A DNA stretch of 33,602 nt from Deltaproteobacteria bacterium (lineage in GTDB: Bacteria > Myxococcota_A > Polyangia > JAAYKL01). The stretch covers positions 1 to 33,602 of the forward strand of contig JAUXHN010000025.1 of NCBI GenBank assembly GCA_030621515.1. The letters are read 5' to 3'. Position numbers and translations under genes: made by a program. Numbering within the stretch: the first letter of the stretch is position 1; each line of letters begins with the position of its first letter. Shown piece after piece: positions 4,836-7,516 of this stretch. The notes under the pieces were generated by a model. The model searched no databases and had not been told where the DNA came from. It saw only the letters and a program-made list of their open reading frames with translations.

Positions 4836-4959
4836 GTGGGGGAATATAGTGGCGACCGGTGATCCCCGCAACCATGAGATGGGATAGGGTCTTCAAGGTT
4901 ATATTTGTAAGACTATTTTTCGGTGCGACAGGTAGTCGCGGATCTCCCTGAACCCGGGG

Positions 4960-6633
4960 CTACTCGAGGGGGTTGATGGTCGCGGTTCCGGTGCCGCCGA
5001 GGTAGGCGTAGCTATCGTCGTCGTCGTAGCCGACCACGATCACGGCGATGCCCTCGTCGCCGGCAAAGGTATGGACCCCGTCCGCGATCGAAACCCGCGC
5101 CACCTCGTGGTCGTTGCCCACCGGGATGAACTCGGCGTTGTCGATCGGCGCGCCGTCCACCAGGACTTCGATGCCGGCAGGACGGACCACGGTGACCACG
5201 TCGTACATCCAGTGCTCGGGCACGAGCAGCACGTAGCGATCGAGGTACTGCTCCACCGGCGAGATCTGCACCTGGGAGGGATCGCCCAGAGTGGGCTCCA
5301 CATTTGGGTTGACCTGAGACGACCCGGTCATGTAGTTGCACACGCCGATCGGCTTGTCCGCCGTGATGTAGAAGTCGCCGGGATCGTCCATCGTGCCGTT
5401 GACGAACGCCTCCCAGACCTCCCCCTGGTTCAGCGTCACCGCCACCGAGGGCAGGCCGGTCACGGCGAATGAAGCATCGAACTCGATAGTGGTGCCGTCC
5501 TCACTGGCCACGATCTGCCACAGGGTCGACTCGATCGGCGAGAGCGTGGAGCGCACCGGCATCCGGGCGGCCACGAACTCCCGGCCCCACTTCTGTACGC
5601 CGGTCAGCTGCTCGTGCAGGTGGTCGCATGCGCTGGAACCCAGCGGGATCGTCGTTCAGGTGTTGCCGCTGAACACCGCGATCGGGTGATCTTCGTCCGA
5701 GGTAATCCTTGTTCCCGTCAGGCTCTGGTTGGAGATCGCGACCTCGAACTGGGCCACGTCCCCCTGGTTCATGGTGACATTGAACGGCACGCCGGGCGAC
5801 CCGGCCGGGATGTTCACGGCCGAAACCGTGCTAACGCTCGGGGTGACCTCGATTACGGTGCCGTCCTCGGCCGCGATCACGGTCGCATAGACGTCCTGGG
5901 CATCGTTGATCTTCTCGGCGCCGAACACGTAGTGGATCGAGTCCCAGGCCCAGACCTGGTACAGCAGGGTGGCGTCCGAGGTGTACGACTCGTCGGCCTC
6001 GTAGGGGTTGACCTGGTAGGCCACGATCGGCACGTCCGAAGTGATGCGGTAGGCCCCGCCGCTGTGGAAGCCGCTGCCGTTGACGTGCTTGTCCGGAACC
6101 GTGAATATATGCAGGTTCATCGGGTCGATCGCGACCGGTCCGCCGTTGACGGCGGCGGTCCAGGTGGCGCCGACCTTCTCCTCCACGACCACATTGGCCA
6201 CGCTGCCGAGCTGCACGTTGGAGACGAAGATCGCGTACTGGTCGGTGTCGTAGGAGATCACCAGGTCCGAGTCGATCGCGTAAAACAGGCAACCCACCGA
6301 GGAGTGCCCCTGCTCGGCCTCCTCACAGGTCTCTGGGATGGCGTGGAGATCCCCGTCGTAGACGCACTCGCCGTCAACGCACTTGTACGGATCCTCACAG
6401 GTCTCCACATACTCACTCTCGTTGTCGGGACCGATGCACTCGTGGACGTCGTCGCCCACGCAGAACATCTCGCCCACGGTGCAGTCGGAATCGGAATCGC
6501 TGTCCGTATCCGTATCTGTGTCCGTGTCGCCGCCGGTGTCATCGCCCGACTCGGTTCTGGCGGCGGAAGAACAACCCCCGAAGCCAGAACAAAGCACCGA
6601 GAAAATCATGATCAGGATGAGTCTGATGGCCAT
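4960..6633 (-). CDS. IgGFc-binding-domain lipoprotein interrupted by one in-frame TGA
   Basis: Reading through one TGA (5658-5656) gives a continuous 557-residue protein. Start: GGAGG five bases before the ATG at 6633. The signal peptide ends at Cys21 (GFGGC), then an Asp-Thr/Ser linker (36-50), then a small Cys-rich region (about 51-91), then a domain that looks like the IgGFc-binding N-terminal domain found in many deltaproteobacterial lipoproteins. Lines such as YRITSDVPIVAYQVNP and, after the stop, SSACDHLHEQL and WGREFVAA are typical. In that family a cysteine usually sits just before the CDH motif, in a context like FSG-x-x-Cys; here the text reads FSGNT-stop-TTIPLGSSACDH, so TGA occupies the cysteine position. 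The 231 codons after it are open and family-like. Alternatives are nonsense mutation (pseudogene), sequencing error, readthrough, or selenocysteine. Its role, possibly adhesion, is unknown. Confidence 0.8.
5631..5658 (-). other. In-frame TGA followed by SECIS-like hairpin (candidate)
   Basis: On the minus strand the TGA at 5658-5656 is followed by a perfect 6-bp stem, CGCTGG pairing with CCAGCG (5645-5640 with 5636-5631), closing a three-base loop GTT (5639-5637). The first loop base is a G and lies 17 bases after the TGA, leaving 16 between. Bacterial SECIS elements are known to be short hairpins just downstream of UGA with a G at the start of the apical loop, and this fits at the near edge of the allowed spacing. 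GC-rich coding DNA makes such hairpins by chance, so this is only a candidate. Confidence 0.3.
6484..6528 (-). repeat. Hexanucleotide coding repeat, Asp-Thr/Ser linker
   Basis: A 45-base tract encodes 15 residues of alternating Asp with Thr, then Ser, directly after the N-terminus of the IgGFc-domain lipoprotein. It is the shortest of the seven linker tracts. Confidence 0.85.
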
Positions 6634-6797
6634 CTTATCCTCCGATTCGATTCATGAAATATTGTCGCATACATTATTGACCCTCGACACTGTTTAAACC
6701 AGCTCTTCGAAAGGGGGATTGTTCCTCTCCTTTTCTCCGGTGCCTCTTACCGATCAATGATAGGATAATCTCACGTTCAAAACGAAAGGGTTGGGGA

Positions 6798-7472
6798 ATG
6801 AGGTACTTGCTTTTGATGGTGCTGGCGGTCGCGCTGGTCTGCGCCGGGTGTGGTAACGATAGTCGCGGGGCTGGGGGAAGCGATTCGGATTCGGACACCG
6901 ATATGGATACAGACTCGGATACAGACACCGACACGGACACAGATACCGACACAGATTCAGATACCGACACCGATACAGATTCAGATACCGACACCGATAC
7001 CGACACAGACACCGATACCGACAGCAGCAGTGATTGCATTGCCTGCACTGCCTCACCCGCAGGCAGCTGTGCCTACAATGCAGTCGCGGTCGGCCACTAT
7101 CAGGGCGGCAATCGAACTGTCTGCATCGAAACGGGAGACGGCTCGTCGTTCTCGCTGGCTCTGCTGAGTTACGAGGTGACCGATTGGACCGTAATTGGTG
7201 CGACTTCTCGGATATCAGAAATCGCAGTGTACGGGTACGATGGTATTGGGACGATCAACGGCAACGGAGGGATCACTACCACCACATGGTTGGAAGGCAG
7301 CGCCGGTTGCAGCCCCTACATCTATTCGACCACTATGAGCGATTGCAACGGCCACCTGGACTTCGCGAGCTGTGTTTTTGGCGTGAGCCCATCCAACGTG
7401 TGCCACATGGAGATCGGCCTGCCGGATGCTTGCGGCTATCCATCATACTCTTGCTTGGGGATCGATCCCTGA
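6798..7472 (+). CDS. Small lipoprotein with long Asp-Thr linker, unknown domain
   Basis: Predicted 224-residue lipoprotein. The signal peptide ends at Cys18 (VCAGC). A 48-residue linker of Asp with Thr or Ser follows (28-75), then a compact Cys-rich domain of about 145 residues. This domain has at least eight cysteines (CIACTASPAGSC, VCIETG, GCSPY, SDCNGH, SCVFG, VCHMEI, ACGYPSYSC), suggesting disulfides in the periplasm or at the surface. I do not recognise the domain. A purine-rich AAAGGG lies nine bases before the ATG. The gene is divergent from the IgGFc lipoprotein across a 164-base spacer and convergent with the VWA lipoprotein, 44 bases away. Confidence 0.82.
   Translation: MRYLLLMVLAVALVCAGCGNDSRGAGGSDSDSDTDMDTDSDTDTDTDTDTDTDSDTDTDTDSDTDTDTDTDTDTDSSSDCIACTASPAGSCAYNAVAVGHYQGGNRTVCIETGDGSSFSLALLSYEVTDWTVIGATSRISEIAVYGYDGIGTINGNGGITTTTWLEGSAGCSPYIYSTTMSDCNGHLDFASCVFGVSPSNVCHMEIGLPDACGYPSYSCLGIDP
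6879..7022 (+). repeat. Hexanucleotide coding repeat, (Ser/Thr-Asp)24 linker
   Basis: A 144-base tract of period 6 encodes 24 Ser/Thr-Asp pairs (one Met-Asp). Codons alternate between GAT/GAC and between ACA/ACC/ACG/TCG/TCA, so the peptide pattern is stricter than the DNA pattern. Confidence 0.9.
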
Positions 7473-7516
7473 CATTCAGGGTTTTGTCTCATAGGGGAGT
7501 TAGGGGTTCAAAGAAA

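Follow-up and report, generated by a model that had tools for sequence, protein, structure and literature searches.

The locus considered here lies in a window of 33,602 nucleotides, by which we mean the whole stretch of DNA that was analysed, and centres on a minus-strand gene for a lipoprotein with an IgGFc_binding domain (Table 1). The frame runs from an ATG at 6633 to a TAG at 4960-4962, a length of 557 codons, and the TGA at 5658-5656 is its sole internal stop. Directly after this TGA the frame continues with TTIPLGSSACDH. The match to IgGFc_binding (PF17517) spans the TGA, covering residues 220-535 (E 5e-69; 233 bits against a curated cut-off of 25.6), and codon usage is coding-like both 5' and 3' of it. 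IgGFc_binding domains are extracellular and take their name from an animal mucus protein; the signal peptide and lipobox-like end read from the translation suggest that the window protein, too, is exported as a lipoprotein. Since most frames terminate normally at TGA, genome-wide recoding of this codon was judged unlikely, in keeping with what had been argued in an earlier reading of the sequence alone (the sequence-only reading).

Table 1. Features of the IgGFc_binding lipoprotein locus, in window coordinates.
Feature	Position	Strand	Basis
IgGFc_binding-domain lipoprotein gene, 557 codons, TGA taken as selenocysteine (U326)	4960..6633	-	one frame, one TGA, PF17517 match
Internal TGA at residue 326, a putative selenocysteine codon in the conserved Cys column	5656..5658	-	Cys in homologues
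SECIS-like hairpin CGCTGG-GTT-CCAGCG, starting 10 nt after the TGA	5631..5645	-	same GTT loop in deiodinase-like and cytochrome genes
TGC for Cys336 (ACDH), presumed to pair with residue 326	5626..5628	-	joint loss in homologues
Predicted signal peptide with lipobox-like end (MAIRLILIMIFSVLCSGFGGC)	6571..6633	-	read from translation
Variable slot, flanks 92-93% identical in two congeners, other genes inside	4872..7514	.	congener comparison

Alignment of the window protein with its homologues, the nearest of which are about 50% identical to it, placed the TGA in a column that is occupied by cysteine nearly throughout the family members of the source genome and its relatives, in the context VFSGxxC...CDH. 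In the source genome itself, cysteine stands at this column in nine of the 11 other copies of the PF17517 domain, none of which contains a stop, and among the family matches listed (about 150 besides the window gene, from 96 genomes) not one has an internal stop. The homologues that lack cysteine here, carrying asparagine (L050), serine (L052) or tyrosine (L003) instead, have also lost the cysteine of the CDH motif, and because of this joint loss the columns of residues 326 and 336 look like a disulfide pair in the relatives; L013 is an exception, in a poor alignment. An AlphaFold model of the domain from single-sequence input had a pLDDT of 34, too low to judge the disulfide, and a search of solved structures found no relative.

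The hairpin downstream of the TGA, at 5645-5631, consists of six perfect Watson-Crick base pairs closed by a GUU triloop 17-19 nt after the TGA (spacing 16 nt), and on its own has a folding energy of -7.9 kcal/mol. The published bSECIS model allows a loop of 3-9 nt with a G in its first two positions, a stem of 4-16 bp, a UGA-loop spacing of 16-37 nt and an MFE <= -7.5 (PMC13188914). With its 3-nt GUU loop, 6-bp stem, spacing of 16 and energy of -7.9 kcal/mol the window hairpin falls within these constraints, yet so do 7.3% of random codons, so that the fit has little weight by itself. Nor does general fold energy provide evidence for a SECIS element, since the whole 60-nt stretch folded no better than its shuffles (z 0.07). 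Within the source genome, a 6-bp stem with a GTT triloop at an offset of 6-17 followed none of 4,989 Cys codons and only four of 342,121 codons overall. As the GTT form was picked after the hairpin had been seen, a fairer chance figure is the 0.46% of Cys codons that are followed by a looser form of hairpin with a G in the loop. The sequence-only reading had described the locus accurately: a frame of 557 codons split by one TGA, this TGA in place of the family cysteine of an FSG-x-x-Cys context before CDH, and a perfect 6-bp hairpin with a GTT loop beginning 10 bases later.

The genome encodes the machinery that such a reading requires. A search for selA, selB, selC and selD, as suggested earlier, recovered all four components: a tRNA-Sec with anticodon UCA, selB and selD, the latter two over their cut-offs, and the 5' end of selA, whose first 89 positions lie at the end of contig C184. 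The selD gene has an in-frame TGA of its own (GSGUASKLG), at the known selenium position.

We then scanned 1.61 Mb, about 35% of the genome, for stops inside coding frames that are followed by a strong hairpin. Such hairpins followed eight of 46 interruptions by TGA, as against two of 93 by TAA or TAG. One gene appeared in two overlapping stretches, and the eight matches correspond to seven unique genes: selD, a deiodinase-like gene, a multihaem cytochrome gene, a DUF1573/OS_HP2 gene, a gene for a 68-residue membrane protein, the window gene and L125:2832. Five of the six besides the window gene are supported selenoprotein genes that share its architecture, the sixth, L125:2832, being probably noise. 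In four of these five (all except selD) the TGA is kept across relatives, pointing to a lineage with several, probably exported, proteins that bear a conserved in-frame UGA. The GTT loop is common to the window, cytochrome and deiodinase-like genes, and recurs in one selenoprotein gene of another genome (G038); the remaining loops in the source genome are GGA (selD), GGTC (68-residue protein) and TTT (DUF1573).

Several of these genes are of interest in their own right. The deiodinase-like gene (L001:115-942; source genome, G000, contig C184), of an exported type, lies upstream of selA with a gene for a CxxCH-containing lipoprotein between them, and its TGA is conserved in five genomes. Its hairpin competes with an alternative pairing, which is the RNAfold optimum for the stretch in the source genome; in the orthologue of congener G002 the GTT hairpin is itself the optimum. 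The multihaem CxxCH lipoprotein (L147:19162 / L185:163; G000:C61) carries the TGA (GEGUAGELPP) in four genomes, with a GTT-loop hairpin, and had no match in NCBIfam; it may or may not be related to the ExtKL cytochrome. The DUF1573/OS_HP2-type selenoprotein (L152:19576; G000:C235) has TGA in seven genomes and Cys in others, and the loop of its hairpin, TTT or similar, does not begin with G. The 68-residue membrane protein (...AGSTUGLLCSPVVAG...; L089:15348-15551; G000:C4) has TGA in all ten genomes in which it was found, with a loop that is mostly GGTC or similar; it too was without a match in NCBIfam, and is possibly an undescribed selenoprotein family.

The window gene has a narrower distribution. 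It is absent from two congeners (G001 and G002), where the slot carries a different lipoprotein gene and other genes (in G001 split over two contigs); their nearest IgGFc_binding family members are 47-49% identical to the window protein, and no orthologue was found. A TGA at the column occurs in the window alone among 318 genomes of the class, and a GTDB-wide pattern scan for it returned no true match, both scans having kept the distance to the CDH motif constant and so being liable to miss variants. A match to the pattern in Treponema (L060:3446-3502) was dismissed as chance because no coding frame runs across it, and viral contigs gave no match. UGA-containing homologues in other organisms, which the field uses as a confidence filter rather than to define selenoproteins, were accordingly not found for the window gene. 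As the congeners lack the gene altogether, conservation of this particular TGA is not thereby refuted.

Taken together, these data lead us to read the TGA as a selenocysteine codon within a full-length, 557-residue exported lipoprotein bearing U326, with a probability of roughly 0.87. The mechanism is ordinary bacterial selenocysteine insertion: SelB with Sec-tRNA(UCA) would read the UGA, steered by the GUU-loop hairpin, and the ribosome would complete a protein with U326 where other IgGFc_binding members have Cys. U326 would then probably bond with Cys336 as a selenenylsulfide, at the position of the disulfide in relatives. Against this reading count the lack of a TGA at the column in the other genomes examined and the fact that IgGFc_binding is not known to be a redox enzyme.

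The sequence-only reading had raised selenocysteine in a secreted lipoprotein as a possibility and preferred a nonsense change or a sequencing error as simpler; the former suggestion is now well supported by the machinery, the conserved cysteine and the like hairpins, and the preference has become less likely. A recent change of TGC or TGT to TGA, leaving a decaying gene or a truncated product, would account for the TGA being found at this column in no other genome, and would suit a variable locus whose gene may be dispensable. Such an event would have had to strike a conspicuous place, however: a single change can create a stop at 152 places in the gene, and 13 of these changes affect Cys codons, two of the 13 lying in this Cys pair. 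It would also leave the hairpin as a separate coincidence, of about 0.5% or less, in a gene whose coding codon usage persists on both sides and whose family is free of stops in the other matches listed, and we consider it improbable. The assembly is fragmented (346 contigs), and this lends some room to a sequencing or assembly error, but the error must have hit a conserved Cys codon that has a matching hairpin behind it, in a contig that is not foreign, given flanks 92-93% identical to the congeners; it seems very improbable indeed. Finally, a frame of 204 residues with a GTG start lies downstream of the TGA, so that a separate protein might be made from it, or the UGA might be read through by a near-cognate tRNA without selenocysteine. 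As the PF17517 match crosses the TGA, and neither the Cys column nor the hairpin would be explained, we give this hardly any credence.

Selenocysteine at residue 326 can be compared with several known systems. The SECIS element of E. coli fdhF has a short stem and a small G-U-containing loop downstream of the UGA; the window hairpin is shorter and has a triloop. PF17517 proteins resemble the window protein in the domain and in the remaining sequence, and all the others examined have Cys or another sense codon at the column. The DUF1573/OS_HP2 protein (NF041425) is alike in belonging to the same genome, in carrying selenocysteine at a conserved Cys that is not part of a thioredoxin-type domain and in having Cys in some relatives; it differs in that its TGA is present in seven genomes and that its U is directly followed by GC, whereas U326 is 10 residues from its likely partner. 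If confirmed, the window gene would extend the selenoproteins by a family that does not belong to the usual redox enzymes, and would make it testable why selenium is invested in a lipoprotein of the cell surface, perhaps at a disulfide with a structural role. Because gene callers cut at UGA, exported proteins of this kind are lost or called pseudogenes, and the finding draws attention to a little-studied bacterial lineage with conserved in-frame UGA genes, including that of the 68-residue membrane protein. Among the papers listed by a literature search for IgGFc together with selenoprotein, none is related as far as titles and abstracts tell, and IgGFc_binding is not among the 119 prokaryotic selenoprotein families of a 2026 inventory, which are mostly thiol oxidoreductases or metal and electron-transfer proteins (PMC13188914), so it is probably a new selenoprotein family. 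Like bacterial selenoproteins with Cys homologues (PMC13188914), it combines a TGA at a conserved Cys with a bSECIS-type hairpin downstream and Sec genes in the genome. On balance we favour the view that this is the first IgGFc_binding selenoprotein, with selenocysteine replacing one of the two cysteines of a conserved structural disulfide, from a lineage that places selenocysteine in exported non-enzymes as well as in redox enzymes.
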